From: a virus
Virus record (IMG/VR): IMGVR_UViG_3300045243_000027
Location: 1 to 27,319 of that record
Reading direction: 5' to 3' (one strand)
Length of the DNA stretch: 27,319 nucleotides
Part shown: piece by piece, positions 14,321 through 27,193 of the stretch
How positions within the stretch are numbered: the stretch's first letter is position 1
Layout: each line of letters opens with the position of its first letter
Notes under the pieces: generated by a model
The model's database searches: none
Told to the model about the DNA's origin: nothing
The model's input: the letters and a program-made list of their open reading frames with translations, nothing else
Translations under genes and position numbers: made by a program

Positions 14321-14332
14321 TTGGGAGTATTT

Positions 14333-15019
14333 ATGCGGATTGGCCTTTGTACGCCATGCTATAACGAACAGATTCACTATGACTATATGCTGTCGGTCAT
14401 GGCGGTCGATCGCATGGCCGTCAAGCTCGGATTTGAACTGAAAACCTACATCGCGGCGGGGACTGCGATTTTACCACGGGTTCGCAATCGTCTGATCACG
14501 CAGGCGATGGCCGACAAATGCGACTGGATCGTCTGCATCGACGACGATATCGGGTTTAACGCCGAGGATTTCTTCAGGCTGTTCAAGCATGGCGTTGATA
14601 TAGTCGCTGCGGCTCCCGCCAAGCGCCATCATCGCTGGGATGAACAGCCGGCCGCTGTAGCCAAGTTCCCGAAAGGGAAGATCACGGGCAAGCGAACCGA
14701 AGCCGGCCGGATCTGGAAAATGGATGCGGTTGCTACTGGTTTCATGGCGATCCGCTCAAGCGTCATTGAGAAGATGGAAGCCGTGACGAACGCCTATGTC
14801 ACGGAAGGCGTGCAGGTCCGAAGCTGGTTCTGGCTTGATCTGATCACGCTCAACGGTGAAGTCACGGACGAGGGCGAGGATTACAACTTTTGCCGGAAAT
14901 GGATTGAACTTGGCGGCGAGTGTTGGGTTGATCCTGACATCCGGGTTCGACATTACACCGGCAACGTATGTCACGACATCTGCCTGGCAGATGCAGAAAT
15001 CAAAGAGGAAGCAGCATAA
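14333..15019 (+). CDS. GT-A fold glycosyltransferase
   Basis: A 228-residue protein from the ATG at 14333, preceded by GGGAG; the frame is open back to a TTG at 14321, which would add four residues. The N-terminal strand MRIGLCTPCYNEQIH and the motif WIVCIDDDIGF (DDD at 70-72) are the nucleotide-sugar and metal-binding parts of family 2-like glycosyltransferases. EDYNFC (182-187) is the acidic segment that usually supplies the catalytic or acceptor-side residue, and VDPDIRVRHYTG (His207) the C-terminal metal ligand. There is no membrane segment. It is inside the structural block, so the likely acceptor is a virion protein such as the Ser/Thr-rich neighbours. Host surface modification is the alternative. 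Confidence 0.82.
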   Translation: MRIGLCTPCYNEQIHYDYMLSVMAVDRMAVKLGFELKTYIAAGTAILPRVRNRLITQAMADKCDWIVCIDDDIGFNAEDFFRLFKHGVDIVAAAPAKRHHRWDEQPAAVAKFPKGKITGKRTEAGRIWKMDAVATGFMAIRSSVIEKMEAVTNAYVTEGVQVRSWFWLDLITLNGEVTDEGEDYNFCRKWIELGGECWVDPDIRVRHYTGNVCHDICLADAEIKEEAA

Positions 15020-15348: not shown

Positions 15349-15687
15349 ATGTCCAAAACCCGCGCTCAAATCCAGTTCAAGGTGTTGGCGATCCTGACCG
15401 GGGGAGACGTGGGCCAAATTCCATCTGCGGAGGACGCAACCACGATCGACGGCTATATCGACAGCGAAGTGGCCGAGCTACAGAGCGACGGCACGACCTA
15501 CATTGACGACCCGGACAGTCTGGACGATGGGCTGTTCACGGTATTCTGCAAGCTGGTCGCAAATTCCGCTGCCGATGAATTCGGAGGGCAATCGAATGAG
15601 CAATTGGCTCTGAGCTACCGCAACCGTTTACGTGTCCTGACCCGTCAAACGCCGGGCTATGGCCCGCAGATCACCGAATATTTCTGA
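15349..15687 (+). CDS. head-tail adaptor, P22 gp4 position
   Basis: A 112-residue protein: KTRAQIQFKVLAILTG at the start, AEDATTIDGYIDSEVAELQ, YIDDPDSLDDGLFTVFCKL and ANSAADEFGG, then a C-terminal helix. This is the helical pattern of P22 gp4-like head-completion/adaptor proteins that bind under the portal ring. Position supports it: in P22, gp4 precedes gp10, and here the gp10-like gene follows after an inserted endonuclease gene. Sequence similarity to gp4 is weak by eye. GAGG lies four bases before the ATG. The stop overlaps the next start (TGATGA). Confidence 0.65.
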   Translation: MSKTRAQIQFKVLAILTGGDVGQIPSAEDATTIDGYIDSEVAELQSDGTTYIDDPDSLDDGLFTVFCKLVANSAADEFGGQSNEQLALSYRNRLRVLTRQTPGYGPQITEYF

Positions 15688-16178
15688 TGAAACCGACAGC
15701 AGAGCGCGTTCGCGAGGTGCTTGACTATAATCCACTCACTGGGAGTTTTGTTTGGCGCATTTCACCATGCAATTCCACACCAGCAGGCTCTTTGGCTGGC
15801 GCCGACAGCGAAGGATATCGCCTGATTCGTCTCGATGGCGGGCGATATAAAGGGCATCAATTAGCGTGGCTTTACATGACAGGAGAATGGCCATCTCGTC
15901 AGGTTGACCACGAGGATACTAACCGATCAAATAATCGATGGGGCAATCTACGCCTCGCTACTGGAAGTCAGAACAAGGCCAACATGGGCAAGCGTTCTGA
16001 CAACACGAGTGGATTCAAAGGAGTTTGCTGGTATCCGACAACTAAGAAATGGAGAGCTGGGATCGGATGCCAAGGCAAAGTGAAAACTATCGGCTATTTC
16101 AAAACTCCTGAAGAGGCGCACGCCGCTTATTGTGAAGAAGCTAAGCGCCTTTTCGGCGAATTTGCCAGATTTGAATAA
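15687..16178 (+). CDS. HNH-AP2 homing endonuclease
   Basis: A 163-residue protein with an HNH_3 nuclease domain: H57 in YKGHQLAWLYMTG, then RQVDHEDTNRSNNRWGNLRL with D74-H75 and N83/N87. An AP2-type DNA-binding domain follows at 108-162 (SGFKGVCWYPTTKKWRAGIG, then TIGYFKTPEEAHAAYCEEAKR). This HNH-plus-AP2 arrangement is typical of free-standing homing endonucleases that cut a phage genome lacking the gene and so spread. The gene is visibly AT-richer than its neighbours and splits a conserved gp4-gp10 gene pair with no gap on either side, which fits insertion by transfer. Confidence 0.92.
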   Translation: MKPTAERVREVLDYNPLTGSFVWRISPCNSTPAGSLAGADSEGYRLIRLDGGRYKGHQLAWLYMTGEWPSRQVDHEDTNRSNNRWGNLRLATGSQNKANMGKRSDNTSGFKGVCWYPTTKKWRAGIGCQGKVKTIGYFKTPEEAHAAYCEEAKRLFGEFARFE

Positions 16179-20156: not shown

Positions 20157-21850
20157 GCGATCTGCCTGACGGTTTTGTGCTGGAACAGGCTACGCCGCCG
20201 ACGCCGGCTGCTGGACTGCCTGACGGGTTTGTCTTGGAGGGACAGAGCGCGCCTTCTGATGCGACACCCGCGCCTAAATCGTTCATGGATAAGCTTGGTG
20301 AAACTTCCTGGGGCCAACTCGCCAAGGGCGCAGTGGACGCGGTTACTCTTCCGGGCGATGTCTACAGCGGTAAGGTGCAGGCTGGTAGCCCGGAGGAACT
20401 AGACCGCGCCAGAGGAGCGGCACTCTATTTGACGCCTGGTAGCGCAGCGCTCCGCGGTGGCGAGGGTGTTGCGGGCGTGGCGTTGGCACCGCGAACGGCG
20501 GAAGTGTCCCCCGGTATAGCCGCAGCTAAGACCGCCGAGGATTTGGGCGCGCCTTTGCCGATTGGTCTCGCGACCGAAAACAAGGGCATGCAGGCCGCGA
20601 CAAAGGCGGCCCAGCAGCTTCCATTAGTTGGCCCGAAGATAGGCGAGCAGGCTGCGCGCACTGTCAGCGCGGCAGGGAACAAGGTCGGAGACATTGCCGA
20701 TGATCTGTCCGGAGGCGTCGTTGACCGCGCCTCAACGGGCGCCATGTTGCGGCCATCGATCAAGGGAGTAATCGAGGGCAACAATTCACGCATTGACGAT
20801 GCCTTTTCGTCTTTGCGCAACATGCTCGATCAGTCAGAGCCTGCAGAGCTTCCGACGACGGAAAAAGTTCTAAAAAAGATTGTGGACGAACGGACCGCAG
20901 CCGGACAGACCAATCCGAAAGCCGGGCTTGAAGATGCTCATAATCTGGTGGATCAAGGCGCGACATTCGACGGTCTCCAGCGCGCCCGGTCTGATGTCGG
21001 CAATACTCTAAACTTCGGAGAAGCTAACCCCGGTTTCAATGCTGGCGACCTGAAGCGCGTCTATGGGGCAATGTCCCGCGATATGGAAGGCGTTGCCGCT
21101 CAGAGTGCCAAGGAAGGCATTGCACCCCAAGCGGCGGTTCAAGCCCTAAAAGACGCGAATGCGACAGCGGCGCCGATCATAGAATTCAACAAGACCCTGC
21201 AGAAGCTTTCTGGCATCAACTCGGATGAAAGTCTTGTTGGGTCTCTCACCAAGACTGCTCAGGACAAAACGGGCAACGTGAAGCTTCTCGCCCAGCTTCG
21301 CCAGTCCATGCCCCCAGAGGACTTCCAGCAAATCGCCGGGACCGCGCTTTCGGAGCTAGGCCACAACCAGTCAACCGGAAAATTCAGCCTCAATCAGTTC
21401 GCGACGAAATGGGAGGGGCTTGGAGATCGTGCCAAGTCTGTCCTGTTTTCGCCCGAACATAAGGCTTCGCTCGATAGTATCGCAGCGCTCGGCCGCCATC
21501 TAAAGGACGCCGACAAGTTTGCAAACACGTCGAACACGGCGGGCGCTGCAGCATGGGGAAAACTCATTGCCAGCGGTGCAGCCGCGGCCGGAGCCCTGAC
21601 TTATGGCGACGTATCCTTATTGATCAAGGGAATCGGCGCCGCTGGAACAGGCATGATGTTTGCCAGACATCTAGCGAAGCCGGCAGGCGCGTCAACGATC
21701 GCTAAGTGGACGAGGGCGGCCGTTTTGGCTGATCACGGTCATACGCCGGCAAGATTGGCCTCTTTCCGGATGGCGACGCGGAATCTTTTGAAGAATATCG
21801 GCCAAGACCAAACCAGTCCTCAGCAATCCACAGCGCTCCAGCCCCAATAA
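20153..21850 (+). CDS. large ejection protein, P22 gp16-like position
   Basis: A 565-codon ORF from the GTG at 20153 (GTGA overlap, GGGGG nine bases upstream). An in-frame ATG at 20138 would add five residues. It begins with two copies of LPDGFVLE (residues 4-11 and 22-29), a motif frequent at the start of phage internal proteins. The body is helical and charged; residues about 455-500 (AAAWGKLIASGAAAAGALTYG, LLIKGIGAAGTGMMFARHL) are hydrophobic enough to enter a membrane. No peptidoglycan-hydrolase motif is seen. It would be the third ejection protein. Its last 149 bases overlap a minus-strand ORF. Confidence 0.75.
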   Translation: MSDLPDGFVLEQATPPTPAAGLPDGFVLEGQSAPSDATPAPKSFMDKLGETSWGQLAKGAVDAVTLPGDVYSGKVQAGSPEELDRARGAALYLTPGSAALRGGEGVAGVALAPRTAEVSPGIAAAKTAEDLGAPLPIGLATENKGMQAATKAAQQLPLVGPKIGEQAARTVSAAGNKVGDIADDLSGGVVDRASTGAMLRPSIKGVIEGNNSRIDDAFSSLRNMLDQSEPAELPTTEKVLKKIVDERTAAGQTNPKAGLEDAHNLVDQGATFDGLQRARSDVGNTLNFGEANPGFNAGDLKRVYGAMSRDMEGVAAQSAKEGIAPQAAVQALKDANATAAPIIEFNKTLQKLSGINSDESLVGSLTKTAQDKTGNVKLLAQLRQSMPPEDFQQIAGTALSELGHNQSTGKFSLNQFATKWEGLGDRAKSVLFSPEHKASLDSIAALGRHLKDADKFANTSNTAGAAAWGKLIASGAAAAGALTYGDVSLLIKGIGAAGTGMMFARHLAKPAGASTIAKWTRAAVLADHGHTPARLASFRMATRNLLKNIGQDQTSPQQSTALQPQ

Positions 21851-22031
21851 GCATCGGCCCTATCCACCAATATAAGCCGTCGCTTCCATGGCTGCGAACG
21901 TTACGTGACCAAAAAATATCCGATGGCGATGTCCAGACCACTGAAATCGGATGCTCCCAAGCAATCATCAGCAACGCGCCGCCAGCGATGAGCGCCAAAG
22001 CTACCGACAACTGAAACAGCTTCCACCACAT
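21702..22031 (-). CDS. minus-strand two-helix membrane protein
   Basis: The only minus-strand gene I would accept. A 109-residue ORF begins MWWKLFQLSVALALIAGGAL and has two hydrophobic segments (about 6-26 and 53-72, the second LYWWIGPMLIGAGALWIAED), separated by a loop with SVVWTSPSDIFWSRN. Its ATG is preceded by GAGAGG at the right distance. It fills a 193-base stretch (21851-22043) with no plus-strand gene; the last 50 codons run under the end of the ejection-protein gene. The clean TM-loop-TM shape and the ribosome-binding site argue against chance. No family is recognised; a lysis, exclusion or envelope role is open. Confidence 0.55.
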   Translation of the reverse strand: MWWKLFQLSVALALIAGGALLMIAWEHPISVVWTSPSDIFWSRNVRSHGSDGLYWWIGPMLIGAGALWIAEDWFGLGRYSSKDSASPSGKRPILPAYDRDQPKRPPSST

Positions 22032-22043
22032 TAGGGCCTCTCA

Positions 22044-23081
22044 ATGCTCAAACGCTTATCCCTCGCCCTCGCGGGGCTCTTTGTGCTGTCTGCACAGTGC
22101 TTCGCAGCCGGCACCATACCATATTCGCTGTCCCAGCAGTTTGATAAATATGGGCATGTCCTAGCCGGTTGTAAACTCAACATAATTCAGGCTGGGACGG
22201 TTGGCACTCCCCAAACCGCCTATCAGGATTCGGCGTTAACGATCCCGGTTCCTGGGGGAAGCCTACTTACTTGCGATGCAGCCGGGCGGCTCCCGCAGTT
22301 CTTCCTTGCGGACGGCTCGGTCAAGATTCTGCTTACCGACGTAAACGGCGTTACACAGGTATCGGCGGACGGCATCCTGGTCGTCGGGGCAAGCTCTGGC
22401 GGCGGCGGCGGGTCTCCCGTCGATCCGACTACGGTCCTGCAAACGGGCTGGCTACAGCCGATCTACGGATCTGGCGTCGTCACCGGCTTTGTTCGCGCCA
22501 ACGGTCGAACCATCGGATCGGCAACATCAGGCGCCTCCGAGCGGGCCAACTCCGATACGCAGGCATTGTTCCTGTGGCTCTGGGGTGCTGATGCTAATCT
22601 GGCCGTTTCGACGGGCAGGGGTGCTTCAGCCGCTGCGGATTGGGCGGCGAATAAAACCATTGCGCTCCCCGATTGGCGCGGGCGCGCGCTCGCCGGTCTT
22701 GATGACATGGGCAACAGCGCGGCGGGACGGCTGACTGCGACTTATTTCGGCACGGCGGCAACGGCCCTCGGAGCGGCGGGGGGTGCGGAAAGCCAAACCC
22801 TTTCCCTTGCTCAACTGCCGACTGGCATCACGTCAACCGGAACATTGACTGTAGGGGGCACCAGCAACGGCGCATTGTCGTTCATGACCGCAGACCAGCA
22901 GGGCACAGTTATCACCATTAACTCCGGGGCAACCGTATCATTCAAGGCAATTCTTAACGCCGGAACCAGCTTGACCCAGAGCGCCAGTGCTACGGGCACG
23001 CTGACCTCGAACAACACCAGCGGGAGCGCCCATCCGATTGCAAGTCCGATGATGCTCGCAACCATTTACCTGAAGCTTTAG
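22044..23081 (+). CDS. tail collar/fibre protein with signal peptide
   Basis: A 345-residue protein. Residues 1-21 are a Sec signal peptide: MLKR, a hydrophobic core LSLALAGLFVLSA, and a cleavage region QCFA/AG. Residues 29-70 (QQFDKYGHVLAGCKLNIIQAG, then TPQTAYQDSALT) are the short beta domain common at the start of podovirus tail fibres. A Gly/Ser linker (117-125) follows. Residues about 138-225 form a tail-collar domain (GWLQPIYGSGVVTGFVRANG to IALPDWRGRALAGLDDMGNS). The rest is Thr/Gly/Ser-rich beta fibre. It is probably part of the receptor-binding tip. A virion protein with an export signal is unexpected. Confidence 0.85.
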   Translation: MLKRLSLALAGLFVLSAQCFAAGTIPYSLSQQFDKYGHVLAGCKLNIIQAGTVGTPQTAYQDSALTIPVPGGSLLTCDAAGRLPQFFLADGSVKILLTDVNGVTQVSADGILVVGASSGGGGGSPVDPTTVLQTGWLQPIYGSGVVTGFVRANGRTIGSATSGASERANSDTQALFLWLWGADANLAVSTGRGASAAADWAANKTIALPDWRGRALAGLDDMGNSAAGRLTATYFGTAATALGAAGGAESQTLSLAQLPTGITSTGTLTVGGTSNGALSFMTADQQGTVITINSGATVSFKAILNAGTSLTQSASATGTLTSNNTSGSAHPIASPMMLATIYLKL

Positions 23082-23083
23082 CG

Positions 23084-23422
23084 ATGGGCATCACCCTCAA
23101 TTCCGCCGCGACCAGCTACCGTGACTGGAAAACACAATTCCAGTTCAACGACGCGGATACCGGCGACCTGATTGACTTTAGCGGGGCTTTCATCGCGATT
23201 GCGGTCGAGGATCAGGGTGGCTGCCAGAAGATTTTAGCAACAACCGATAACGGTCTAATCGTCATCGTCTCGACCGGCCTGATCGAAATGGACATTCCTG
23301 AAACGCAAATGGACCTATGCGCCGGCAGCTATAACATGGGCGGCTACTATCAATTGAACGGCGAGACGATTGACTTGTTTGAAGGCTCCCTTTCCATCCG
23401 CAGGGGGATTCCGCAGCCGTGA
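23084..23422 (+). CDS. small tail-fibre-region protein
   Basis: A 112-residue beta-rich protein two bases after the previous stop: YRDWKTQFQFNDADTGDLIDF, IAIAVEDQGGCQKILATTDNG, LIEMDIPETQMDLCAGSYNM, and ETIDLFEGSLSI. The pattern resembles small baseplate or fibre accessory domains (the BppU/DUF2479-like N-terminal fold of Gram-positive phages is one parallel), but I cannot assign a family. Translated in a chain with its neighbours, it probably assembles with them at the tail tip. It has no signal peptide, unlike the genes on either side. Confidence 0.65.
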   Translation: MGITLNSAATSYRDWKTQFQFNDADTGDLIDFSGAFIAIAVEDQGGCQKILATTDNGLIVIVSTGLIEMDIPETQMDLCAGSYNMGGYYQLNGETIDLFEGSLSIRRGIPQP

Positions 23423-23973
23423 CAATCCCCATTCTCAAGATAAAGGTAATTCCGAAGTCCGTCGTCAAGGGCAAGATGGACGTTCGGTTTCCTGCGAATG
23501 TCGGGGTTTCAAGCTTCCTGACCGCCGCCAAAGCCAATGGGACATATACGTTCGGCGTTGATTATACGCTTATTGGCACCGTCCCGATTAACGATCCAAC
23601 AACGGCAATGGTTGTGGTTCTGGATGAAACGAGCAGCACCTATAAACTGCAAAGCCTCTCTAATCTACTCGCCAGTACAGCCCAGATCGAGCAGCACATC
23701 ACGGCGGCCGGTCCTGTCACGATCAATAATAACACGGGCATCGTGCGCGTCGATCAGACGGTCGGGGCGGCCATCACGATCAATCTTCCCGCCGCGTCGA
23801 ACAAGACCTGTCCCGTTCTGATAGCGGACTGGAAGGGGGATGGGGGAACGAACAATATCACGATCACGCCGAACGGTTCCGAGAAAATCCAGGGGCAATC
23901 CACATGGACGATTGCCGCCGATACCGGAAGCGTTTTCTTGCGTCCTATTTCTGGGGTCGGGTACGTCATATGA
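23419..23973 (+). CDS. tail-fibre-region protein
   Basis: A 184-codon ORF from a GTG overlapping the previous stop (GTGA). The N-terminal part (LKIKVIPKSVVKGKMDVRFPA to TFGVDYTLIG) and the C-terminal part (GIVRVDQTVGAAITINLPAAS, NNITITPNGSEKIQGQ, SVFLRPISGVGYVI) both consist of short beta strands. The C-terminal part is a recurring unit in phage tail fibres. It overlaps the start of the next gene by four bases (ATGA). It is likely a fibre or adaptor subunit; no enzyme motif is present. Confidence 0.7.
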   Translation: MTIPILKIKVIPKSVVKGKMDVRFPANVGVSSFLTAAKANGTYTFGVDYTLIGTVPINDPTTAMVVVLDETSSTYKLQSLSNLLASTAQIEQHITAAGPVTINNNTGIVRVDQTVGAAITINLPAASNKTCPVLIADWKGDGGTNNITITPNGSEKIQGQSTWTIAADTGSVFLRPISGVGYVI

Positions 23974-25460
23974 ACTATAGACATAAGCTTTTAGCGGCCG
24001 CTTCGGCGGTCTTTTTCATGGCAGGTTCGGCATTGGCTCAGAACGCGGGCACGGTCACAAACCACGCTTTTGCCATTGGCAAGGGCGCGGGCACCACTGG
24101 ATTTACTTCAGCGCTTTGCACGTCCGCGCAGCTTATCGTCGGCCAATCTGCAGCCGATCCGCTCTGCAAGACGATCACAGGCGACGTGACGATTACTGCG
24201 GCGGGTGCCACGGCTATCGGCGCCGGCAAGGTTACAAGCACAACAATCCTGAATAGTGCCGTTACGAACGACAAATTAGCGAACATGAACGCCTTCACGT
24301 TCAAGGGCAACAATACTGGATCGGCCGCAGTCCCGACCGATGTTGATATTGCGGCGCTAACCGCGAAGGCCAGCCCAGCCGCCAGCGATCTGGTGATGAT
24401 TTCTGACCAAGCCGCATCCGGCGCTTGGAAGAAGGTTACTCTTTCATCGATTTCTTCGGCAGGCGCTGTTGTTGACGTGAACGGCTTGGCTGGATCTGTG
24501 GTTGTCCCAATAGAGCCAGGTGGGCGGCTAACGCTCGCGAGCGGCGCTCCCGTCATGACGACTGACCAGGCTGGGGCCACAACTATCTTTTATGCCCCGC
24601 TAAACTCTCCCTATATTCCCATCTATAATGGAACGAACGTCAGGCAATTTCTTTTCACGTCAAGCACGACGGATGCGGTCGGGCTTTCGATTGCGCTCGG
24701 ATCAAATTGGGCTGCCAGCACGATCTATGACGTATTCGTTGGTCTGAACAGTTCGACGGTGACGCTATGCACCGGGCCGGCATGGACGAACAGCGGAGCA
24801 GGGACCAGCACGCGAAGCACAGGGGCCGGGACTACAGAGCTTCAGCTATTCAACGGCCTGCAGACCAATAAGAACTCGATGACGTGCAGGTTCAACAACA
24901 CCACGACGTTCACCTGTGCTGTTAACCAATGTACCTATCTCGGGTCGTTTCTCACCAATGGCAGCGCCGGACAGGTCGATTTCAAGCTCGGCACGGTCGC
25001 GACGAACGGAGGCATTGCCTGCGTTTGCGTGTGGAATGCCTACAATCGAGTTGCGGTGTCTGGTCTGGTCGGGGATTCCACGTCTACCTGGACTTATGCG
25101 GTATCCTCTACATGGCGAGCTGCTAATGGCAGCGCGACAGCGCGCGTCAATGTTGTGCGAGGGCTGAACAACGACGCGCTTAATGCGGATTATCTTGCAA
25201 TTGTTGTTCCCGGCGCAGCGACACAGGGCGTAGCCGGGGTAGGTATTAACGCGACGAACGCATTCACCGGAAGAACTGGATTTGGAGTGTCGGCAGCAGG
25301 TGGAATACAAGTTATAGGCTCTTACAACGGATTCCCGCCTATCGGATTGAACTTCGCATCCGCGCTTGAATACAACTCAACAGCTACGTCTAGTACATGG
25401 GTTGGCAATTCCGGCACGGCCTATATACAGACCGGCCTGAATTACCAAACGACGTACTGA
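23970..25460 (+). CDS. tail fibre protein with signal peptide
   Basis: A 496-residue protein from the ATG at 23970 (ATGA overlap). Residues 1-23 are a textbook Sec signal peptide: MNYRHK, LLAAASAVFFMAGS, then ALA/QN. Next comes a domain I know from alphaproteobacterial phage fibres (AGTVTNHAFAIGKGAGTTGFT, SAADPLCKTITGDVTITAAG, then FKGNNTGSAAVPTDVDIAAL), and then a beta-rich receptor-binding part with several cysteines (C303-C329 region: TLCTGPAWT, MTCRFNNTTTFTCAVNQCTYL, IACVCVW). The Cys-rich tip would suit disulphide formation after export. An upstream in-frame extension to 23904 is rejected because it would hide the signal peptide and has no ribosome-binding site. Confidence 0.85.
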   Translation: MNYRHKLLAAASAVFFMAGSALAQNAGTVTNHAFAIGKGAGTTGFTSALCTSAQLIVGQSAADPLCKTITGDVTITAAGATAIGAGKVTSTTILNSAVTNDKLANMNAFTFKGNNTGSAAVPTDVDIAALTAKASPAASDLVMISDQAASGAWKKVTLSSISSAGAVVDVNGLAGSVVVPIEPGGRLTLASGAPVMTTDQAGATTIFYAPLNSPYIPIYNGTNVRQFLFTSSTTDAVGLSIALGSNWAASTIYDVFVGLNSSTVTLCTGPAWTNSGAGTSTRSTGAGTTELQLFNGLQTNKNSMTCRFNNTTTFTCAVNQCTYLGSFLTNGSAGQVDFKLGTVATNGGIACVCVWNAYNRVAVSGLVGDSTSTWTYAVSSTWRAANGSATARVNVVRGLNNDALNADYLAIVVPGAATQGVAGVGINATNAFTGRTGFGVSAAGGIQVIGSYNGFPPIGLNFASALEYNSTATSSTWVGNSGTAYIQTGLNYQTTY

Positions 25461-25461
25461 T

Positions 25462-26436
25462 ATGAAACGCATTATTCTAATTGTATCGCTATATTGTGTG
25501 GCGGCCTTGAATGCCGTGGCCGCTGTCATGTCCGGCGGCGGCCCGCCCGATCCCTTTACGCTGCAAGAATCATTGATCGTCCCGGCACTCGGATTGTGGG
25601 CAAACAACGCCGGGTTCAATGACACTCAATTCATCGGCACCCGCACGCTCCGCGCCTCGCCGCAGATCAATACTGGCGTTGCCAATCTAGTGCTTATCCT
25701 TGCCGGACAATCGAACGTTGCGAGTGAGGCTCCATCCGCCTATTCACCGACGAACTCAACCGTCGTTGATAATCTGAACATTTATGATGGCGGGATTTAC
25801 GCTTGGGCTGATCCGCCGCTCGGCTCGACTTGGGCATATCAGTCCTTCGGCGGCACCGGCTCGACGTGCGGAACACTGCAAAGCTGCGGCCATGTCGGAG
25901 CGCGCATATCCGATCTCTTTATCAATGCCGGGACATTCGCTCGCGTCATCGTCGCTCCGGTTGCGGTTGGCGGGACAACGATATCCCAGTGGGATACGGG
26001 GCCTCTCTCGAACCGGATTTGCGTCGCCATTGGACGGCTTGCTAACCGGGGCATCACTCCCAGCGTCACGAATGTGACGTTCGCGATTGTCTGGGGCCAG
26101 GGCGAAAGCGAAACTACGAGCACGACCCTGCAATATCAGACTGCCATAACCAACATACTCAACCGGGCCAAAGCCTGCGGATTCTCGGGGCGGTTTTTTG
26201 TCAACAAAGAAACTTTTGGTGCCGGTGCCACGAACGCCAATGTTCAAAGCGCGCAGACCGGAATCGTCGATAGCGTAAACTTCTGGGCCGGTGCCAATGC
26301 TGACGCGCTGACCGGGACGGCTTGTTCTGCCTCCGCCTGCCGCCGCGCGGATAACACGCATTTCACTGACGCGGGCGCAACCAGCCTAGCGGCTGCGATC
26401 CAATCTGCCATGCACGCGAGCGGGGCACCGTACTAG
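25462..26436 (+). CDS. secreted SGNH/sialate O-acetylesterase-like hydrolase
   Basis: A 324-residue protein. Residues 1-20 are a Sec signal peptide (MKRIILIVSLYCVAALNAVA). The catalytic domain from about residue 74 has the blocks of the SASA/CE6 branch of SGNH esterases: LVLILAGQSN (Ser84 nucleophile), APVAVGGTTISQW (Gly169-170), FAIVWGQGESE (211-217) and DNTHFTDAGA (Asp297, His300). These enzymes remove acetyl groups from sugars. In the tail-fibre cluster this suggests a tail-borne deacetylase that edits capsule, O-antigen or exopolysaccharide. The pair of cysteines near 136-142 would be oxidised if exported. It is translated one base after the fibre gene. A terminator follows. Confidence 0.85.
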   Translation: MKRIILIVSLYCVAALNAVAAVMSGGGPPDPFTLQESLIVPALGLWANNAGFNDTQFIGTRTLRASPQINTGVANLVLILAGQSNVASEAPSAYSPTNSTVVDNLNIYDGGIYAWADPPLGSTWAYQSFGGTGSTCGTLQSCGHVGARISDLFINAGTFARVIVAPVAVGGTTISQWDTGPLSNRICVAIGRLANRGITPSVTNVTFAIVWGQGESETTSTTLQYQTAITNILNRAKACGFSGRFFVNKETFGAGATNANVQSAQTGIVDSVNFWAGANADALTGTACSASACRRADNTHFTDAGATSLAAAIQSAMHASGAPY

Positions 26437-26497: not shown

Positions 26498-27193
26498 ATG
26501 ACAATCTTCCCGCGCGTCGTGGATCTGTTCCACGGCGATCTGATGTACAGCGATGCCCATCATACTGACCCGGTTGCGGATTTCCGCGCCATGGCGTCGG
26601 CTGGCATTTACGGAATGATCCACAAGGCAACGCAGGGAATAGGCGTCTCTGATCCGGCCTATGCGCGACGTGTCCACAATGCGCGGCTCGCTGGCATCCT
26701 GACGGGCGCCTATCACTTCAACACAGGCGATACGGTACAGGGGCAGATTAACCATTTCTTCGATGTAGCGCAGCCTGACTATCGCACGTTGATGGCGCTC
26801 GATTGGGAGGACAACAGGGCCTCGCAGATGACGCTTTCGCAGGCTGTCCAGTTCCTCCAGATCGGCAAGGAAATGCTTGGACGGCCGCTATGGCTCTACA
26901 GCGGCAATCGGGTCAAGGAACAGATTGTCAACGCCAGCGAAGAGATTAGGCAGACGTTTGCTGAATGCCCGTTCTGGCTTTGCGAATACGGCCCGGTTGC
27001 CAAGATGAAAGACAGCACTGGAAAGCCGTTGCCGTGGGTTGAACCGACTTTGTGGCAGTTCACCGGCGATGGTGTCGGACCAATGCCACACACAATGCCC
27101 GGCATTCTTACCAAAGGCATCGACATCAACAGCTTCCAGGGAACGCGCGACGATCTGGTCGAAGCCTGGACCGACAACGCTCTTACTTCCTAA
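26498..27193 (+). CDS. endolysin, GH25 lysozyme-like
   Basis: A 231-residue protein of the GH25 (Chalaropsis-type) muramidase family. VVDLFHGD supplies the first-strand Asp9; GIYGMIHKATQGIGVSDPAYA and AGILTGAYHFNTGD are the next two barrel strands; LMALDWEDN carries the catalytic D102-x-E104 pair; LWLYSGNRV and ECPFWLCEYGP are later strands; and LWQFTGDGVG precedes the final IDINSFQG. It would cut the glycan chains of peptidoglycan to release progeny. No signal peptide or anchor is visible, so it needs a holin, which probably begins just downstream. Confidence 0.93.
   Translation: MTIFPRVVDLFHGDLMYSDAHHTDPVADFRAMASAGIYGMIHKATQGIGVSDPAYARRVHNARLAGILTGAYHFNTGDTVQGQINHFFDVAQPDYRTLMALDWEDNRASQMTLSQAVQFLQIGKEMLGRPLWLYSGNRVKEQIVNASEEIRQTFAECPFWLCEYGPVAKMKDSTGKPLPWVEPTLWQFTGDGVGPMPHTMPGILTKGIDINSFQGTRDDLVEAWTDNALTS

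Follow-up and report, generated by a model that had tools for sequence, protein, structure and literature searches.

Signal peptides on a tailspike-like protein, a fibre and an esterase of a podovirus point to export of phage adhesins

Tailed-phage virions are taken to be assembled entirely in the cytoplasm, and the tailspikes of P22, Sf6, Pam1 and Pan3 are known as proteins synthesized there and without a signal peptide. The locus described here raises the question of why three neighbouring tail genes of a tailed phage should begin with signal peptides (SPs), and of where their products would go. The locus lies in a 27.3-kb IMG/VR virus record, all 27,319 nucleotides of which were analysed and are called the window below. 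The window encodes a small and a large terminase subunit, portal, major head and head-closure proteins, and a GH25 endolysin. The virus is a podovirus, a tailed phage with terminase, portal and major head genes, and its host is probably a relative of Bradyrhizobium, judging from the hosts of related phages.

Signal peptides in the tail gene block

Five genes that overlap or nearly abut follow the presumed ejection genes. They begin at 22044 (collar), 23084 (112 aa), 23419 (184 aa), 23970 (fibre) and 25462 (esterase), and are laid out, with the endolysin gene, as follows.

22044..23081, plus strand: the whole collar/tailspike-like gene, 345 aa (phrog_8763, tail protein)
22044..22106, plus strand: predicted Sec SP of the collar, 21 aa, cut CFA^AGTIP; SP conserved in 33 non-redundant relatives, all with Ala at +1
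23084..23422, plus strand: 112-aa protein, SP-less (phrog_1084), syntenic in relatives and conserved between the collar and the attachment protein
23419..23973, plus strand: 184-aa attachment protein, SP-less; its N-terminal part matches the beginning of unsplit fibres, and its C-terminal domain spans 23713-23970
23970..24038, plus strand: predicted Sec SP of the fibre, 23 aa, cut ALA^QNAG; its start overlaps the stop of 23419-23973 (ATGA)
25462..25521, plus strand: predicted Sec SP of the esterase, 20 aa, cut AVA^AVMS
26498..27193, plus strand: GH25 endolysin, SP-less, a lysis enzyme that in our reading would stay in the cytoplasm until the inner membrane fails

The first-pass annotation had placed Sec-type SPs on the genes at 22044, 23970 and 25462 and none on those at 23084 and 23419. 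Its coordinates and starts for the three genes are correct, and both statements held up: with a rule-based caller, the three SPs are the only strong calls among the 33 window genes, and the two small proteins have none. Each SP has a basic n-region, a hydrophobic core and small residues at -3 and -1, and the predicted cuts are MLKRLSLALAGLFVLSAQCFA^AGTIPYS in the collar, MNYRHKLLAAASAVFFMAGSALA^QNAGTV in the fibre and MKRIILIVSLYCVAALNAVA^AVMSGG in the esterase. The A-x-A type of cut first assigned to all three fits the fibre and the esterase; the collar has C-F-A instead, in which Cys at -3 is unusual but small. Collar relatives mostly have Ala or Val at this position: among the 33 collar SPs, -3 is A in 20, V in 8, S in 2, C in 2 and L in 1, and -1 is A in 26, G in 5 and S in 2.

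The caller was home-made and was calibrated on genes upstream of related collars, where it was positive in 5 of 308, and on shuffled N-termini. Composition alone takes shuffled N-termini past the loose rule in 15-43% of cases; just 6.8%, 0.4% and 0.3% of shuffles for the three SP genes match the real score. Since composition explains part of the scores, the weight rests on comparative evidence from relatives. Two other kinds of export signal were considered and rejected. The collar sequence L-S-A-Q-C has Q before the Cys and thus no lipobox, and a pattern search found no twin-arginine (RR) motif of the Tat type.

The head-binding domain of collars with and without a signal peptide

What follows the SP of the collar is a domain with counterparts in fold among phage tailspikes.

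22107..22388, plus strand: mature head-binding domain, residues 22-115, with PDB profile and AF2 fold matches
22170-22172 and 22272-22274, plus strand: codons of Cys43 and Cys77, a pair found in SP forms only

The protein had been described as a tail-tip collar. It is a tail protein, and fold and profile characterize it better as a P22/Pam1-type head-binding, tailspike-like protein. The AF2 model of the domain (mean pLDDT ~90 over residues 1-90) matches Pan3 (9vyg) with Z 12.4, Pam1 (7eeq) with 10.6, Sf6 with 10.0 and P22 (1lkt) with 9.2, and the sequence profile matches Pan3 and Pam1 (9vyg, 7eeq). The window collar thus resembles the tailspikes of these four phages in the fold and position of its mature N-terminal domain, but differs from them in having an SP before the domain and an added Cys pair. 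The domain would come to lie at the N-terminus of the chain only once the SP is removed. As modelled, the mature collar is by its fold a virion-docking protein.

Relatives of the collar came from 63 loci found by scanning viral contigs with the collar as query, and from genome scans, which found collar prophages in Bradyrhizobium, Rhodopseudomonas, Afipia and other Hyphomicrobiales. The first-pass annotation had called for a survey of whether the signal is conserved in related phages. It is present in 33 of the 82 classified non-redundant collars and absent from 49. Four further relatives are unclassified; two of these (L082 and L085) are prophage genes with a broken or missing start that have the alternative Cys pair described below, and in L082 the frame runs from a DNA-binding-like gene into an SP remnant.

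The SP-less collars begin with Met-AGTI or Met-SGTI at exactly the junction where the SP forms are predicted to be cut. Once Met is removed, the N-termini of the two classes would be identical or almost so. An alternative, close to the unprocessed attachment helix that had been offered as one option in the first-pass annotation, is that the hydrophobic N-terminus is never cut and anchors the protein in a membrane or in the virion. The ease with which hydrophobic composition passes the loose rule is in keeping with such an anchor, but the SP-less forms start at the predicted cut, the -3/-1 profile across 33 relatives fits signal peptidase, the SP sequence diverges while its class stays SP-like, and the Cys pairs described below track the SP. 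Because the SP-less forms start at the cut and the mature N-terminus is the docking domain, an unprocessed helix is disfavoured, and we consider it very improbable.

SP and SP-less collars also differ in their cysteines. Cys43/77 is present in 24 of the 33 SP collars and Cys59/88 in 6, so that 30 have a pair; the three with none are those of L016, L088 and L103. Neither pair occurs in any of the 49 SP-less collars, two of which have a lone Cys43. Positions 43 and 77 are the only ones in the head-binding domain at which the two classes favour different residues. One SP-less collar with a lone Cys43, that of L029, is followed by a fibre gene and a further gene that retain their SPs, and it looks like a recent loss of the SP. 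SP status is thus not the effect of a single clade: the collar tree requires a minimum of 6-8 changes (bootstrap range 7-9). In strictly independent pairs on the tree, the Cys pair follows the SP in 3.0-3.8 of 4 and never goes against it, but with so few pairs the test is unable to attain significance (p = 0.125-0.25).

The genomic setting of the collar varies in two Bradyrhizobium loci (L081 and L083), where an SP collar with Cys59/88 lies upstream of a terminase-looking gene and not after ejection genes.

Conservation of the head-binding domain is equal in the two classes. Pairwise identity of the domain is 0.61 among SP forms, 0.64 among SP-less forms and 0.58 between classes, compared with 0.32 for the SP sequences, and the gene is single-copy in all 14 long contigs of SP+ phages. 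Retention of an equally conserved, single-copy domain is not what one would expect of a collar that had left the virion.

The split fibre, its attachment protein and the esterase

The fibre and the esterase contain further domains with cysteines.

24039..24185, plus strand: cap domain of the fibre, with Cys50/Cys66; every occurrence in the loci examined lies behind an SP
24570..25457, plus strand: fibre receptor-binding region with Cys267/306 and Cys316/321; TNF/C1q-like lectin fold at ~25044-25457
25522..26436, plus strand: SASA (PF03629) carbohydrate acetylesterase-like domain with Ser84, Asp297/His300 and Cys-bearing loop inserts 136/142 and 288/293

In L015, L017 and L020, which are SP-less phages, a single chain combines the fibre body with the start of the 184-aa protein. 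In SP phages the chain is split: the SP-less 184-aa protein ends in a small domain of its own, and the fibre opens anew with an SP, mostly through an ATGA overlap with the preceding stop. An SP gene comes directly after this C-terminal domain in all 42 testable cases, part of the fibre loci having been found with SP-bearing queries, and in 32 of 32 cases from a second scan with the 184-aa family as query, many of whose loci are common to the first set. The N-terminal parts of the attachment proteins vary between phages, which indicates that the C-terminal domain and the SP fibre travel as a unit. We infer that the two would form a docking pair. In three loci of other phage types (L007, L138 and L140), there are two successive SP fibre genes, each behind its own SP-less attachment gene.

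A cassette of this kind could also mean that export is a by-product, the SP having arrived together with bacterial exported adhesins and slow export leaving a cytoplasmic fraction for virions. Movement of the C-terminal domain and SP fibre as a unit between different N-terminal attachment types would fit such an origin, and exported bacterial fibres do exist, such as the Bdellovibrio MATs (PMC10769870). However, Cys pairs arose in the collar domain in two alternative places, which points to selection in an oxidising compartment, and the SP has persisted through deep divergence and a minimum of 6-8 switches. We find export as a by-product quite doubtful.

The distribution of cysteines in the fibre is consistent with formation of disulphides after export. 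Cys50 and Cys66 of the cap are both present or both absent in intact copies. At the tip, Cys316/321 is found in 4 of the 8 SP fibres with residues there and Cys267/306 in 5 SP fibres, and neither pair occurs in 10 SP-less tip homologues; a Rhizobium-type fibre (L158) has an SP plus Cys267/306. In the fibre model, Cys316 and Cys321 flank a hairpin turn, and the fold of the C-terminus matches Photorhabdus PLTL (Z 11.8) and the N-domain of BC2L-C (Z 10.9). SP fibres have 1.66 Cys per 100 residues versus 0.73 in SP-less fibres (p 5e-6, with related sequences counted as independent). The first-pass annotation had listed disulphide formation in the periplasm among the reasons for export, and the comparisons support this strongly and independently, in that Cys pairs follow the SP in the collar, the fibre cap and the fibre tip. 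On this pattern, it is highly probable that the exported proteins form periplasmic disulphides.

Neither the fibre cap nor a second type of exported fibre had a match in 50,697 phage records, and a search for the cap in 385 class-level genomes at E 1e-8 gave no hit. It is present in 9 of 392 genomes at E 1e-6 (family of Bradyrhizobium genome G001).

The product of the gene at 25462 is a predicted carbohydrate acetylesterase with putative deacetylase activity. It matches SASA with 36.2 bits against a cut-off of 24.8, and the domain is intact, with the GQSN serine and D-x-x-H motifs. Relatives did not turn up when viral contigs were scanned with the esterase alone; an alignment used as query did find them. 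Relatives in L128 (~45% identity) and L154 (49%) keep the SP; the esterases of Rivra, most Rhizobium phages and L157 are without one, and those of L156 and L158 give weak SP calls. The SASA/CE6-like esterases of Rhizobium phages share the domain and active-site motifs with the window esterase but are without its SP and its two Cys loop inserts. L154 and L157 make a natural pair: the former has a split SP fibre and an SP esterase, whereas in the latter the fibre is fused and neither protein has an SP.

SP status is also linked between genes. Among loci fetched with the collar, 12 of 20 with an SP collar and 3 of 30 with an SP-less one have a large SP gene after it (Fisher p 3e-4, kinship ignored). 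The linkage is incomplete, with 8 of the 20 SP collars lacking such a gene; the status of collar and fibre is thus separable, and export of one does not require export of the other. Based on the comparisons among relatives, we consider the predicted export of the collar, the fibre and the esterase almost certainly genuine, and cleavage of the SPs has strong support from the same comparisons.

Proposed assembly in two compartments

We postulate that the collar, fibre and esterase are made as Sec precursors and exported to the host periplasm, where signal peptidase I would remove the SPs and disulphide bonds would lock the adhesins. Heads, the tail hub and the 112-aa and 184-aa proteins would remain cytoplasmic. 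Failure of the inner membrane at lysis would let the periplasmic collar dock on the tail through its P22/Pam1-type head-binding domain, and the exported fibre would dock on the virion-bound 184-aa protein, probably by way of the C-terminal domain of that protein and the fibre cap. The substrate of the exported acetylesterase would be envelope polysaccharide, and the enzyme may become part of the virion as well. We put the probability of this explanation as a whole (Sec export, disulphides and mounting at lysis) at roughly 0.6.

Given the intact, single-copy head-binding domain, we suspect that the exported tailspike still joins virions, most likely at lysis, and we regard its presence there as reasonably likely. 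Export and an intact docking domain are most simply reconciled if the tailspike is mounted when the cell lyses. Tailspikes of P22 can join completed heads in vitro.

The exported proteins could instead have their whole function at the envelope of the infected or lysogenic cell and not be parts of the virion. There they might occlude or deacetylate new surface glycan, block superinfection or stop progeny from sticking to debris. A SASA esterase domain and a TNF/C1q-like lectin tip suit work on glycans, SP+ phages make the fibre and its attachment protein as two chains, and Pantoea WceF is an exported enzyme of tailspike fold that trims exopolysaccharide (PMC7949094). Several features stand against a function at the surface alone: conservation of the collar docking domain is undiminished in the only such gene of each long contig, the genes lie within the tail operon with overlapping starts, and the SP fibre goes together with the C-terminal domain of the 184-aa protein. 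We think a purely surface function unlikely. Joining of tails after lysis had been one of the options in the first-pass annotation; we favour it as the sequel to disulphide formation, with a function confined to the surface as the weaker rival. Whether a lineage of tailed phages assembles in two compartments, with cytoplasmic DNA particles and periplasmic, disulphide-locked adhesins mounted only at lysis through an acceptor/donor cassette, is a claim to which we give even odds.

Other systems resemble the window phage in part. Coat proteins of filamentous phages, such as pIII, are virion adhesins made as Sec precursors and assembled by extrusion through the membrane. The likeness lies in the Sec-precursor virion adhesin; in contrast, the window phage is tailed and has terminase, portal and major head genes. 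Pseudanabaena phage Pam5 has the same gene order (collar, 112-aa protein, tail spike), with a homologous collar, 184-type N-terminus and fibre body, but has no SP, an unsplit spike and no Cys in the spike. In Bdellovibrio MATs and Pantoea WceF, a phage-fibre or tailspike fold follows an export signal (PMC10769870, PMC7949094). However, these are bacterial genes that serve the bacterium, WceF uses Tat, and neither is part of a phage virion. The window genes are not bacterial fibres of the MAT type, as they belong to a tail operon that also includes terminase, portal, major head, head-closure and endolysin genes. A literature search limited to open-access papers found no tailed-phage precedent for exported adhesins, and the absence of an SP has been taken to mark an adhesin as phage-derived (PMC6199706).

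If adhesins do pass through the periplasm, then views of the order of assembly, of what lysis contributes and of how exported prophage proteins should be annotated would all change. Cysteine pairs that appear on the move to an oxidising compartment would make a clean evolutionary case. Natural pairs of phages with and without SPs make export directly testable.

The window has further features around this gene block. On the minus strand at 21702-22031, directly before the collar, is a 109-aa open frame with two hydrophobic stretches; no homologue was found in the fetched loci, and it is possibly not a gene. At 14321-15019, inside the structural gene block, is a glycosyltransferase-like gene (phrog_1574) with a weak Anp1 match below the curated cut-off. 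An HNH_3 plus AP2 homing-endonuclease-like gene lies amid the tail genes at 15687-16178, and its relatives adjoin or lie near the collar gene in L013, L016, L037, L063 and L089, among others.
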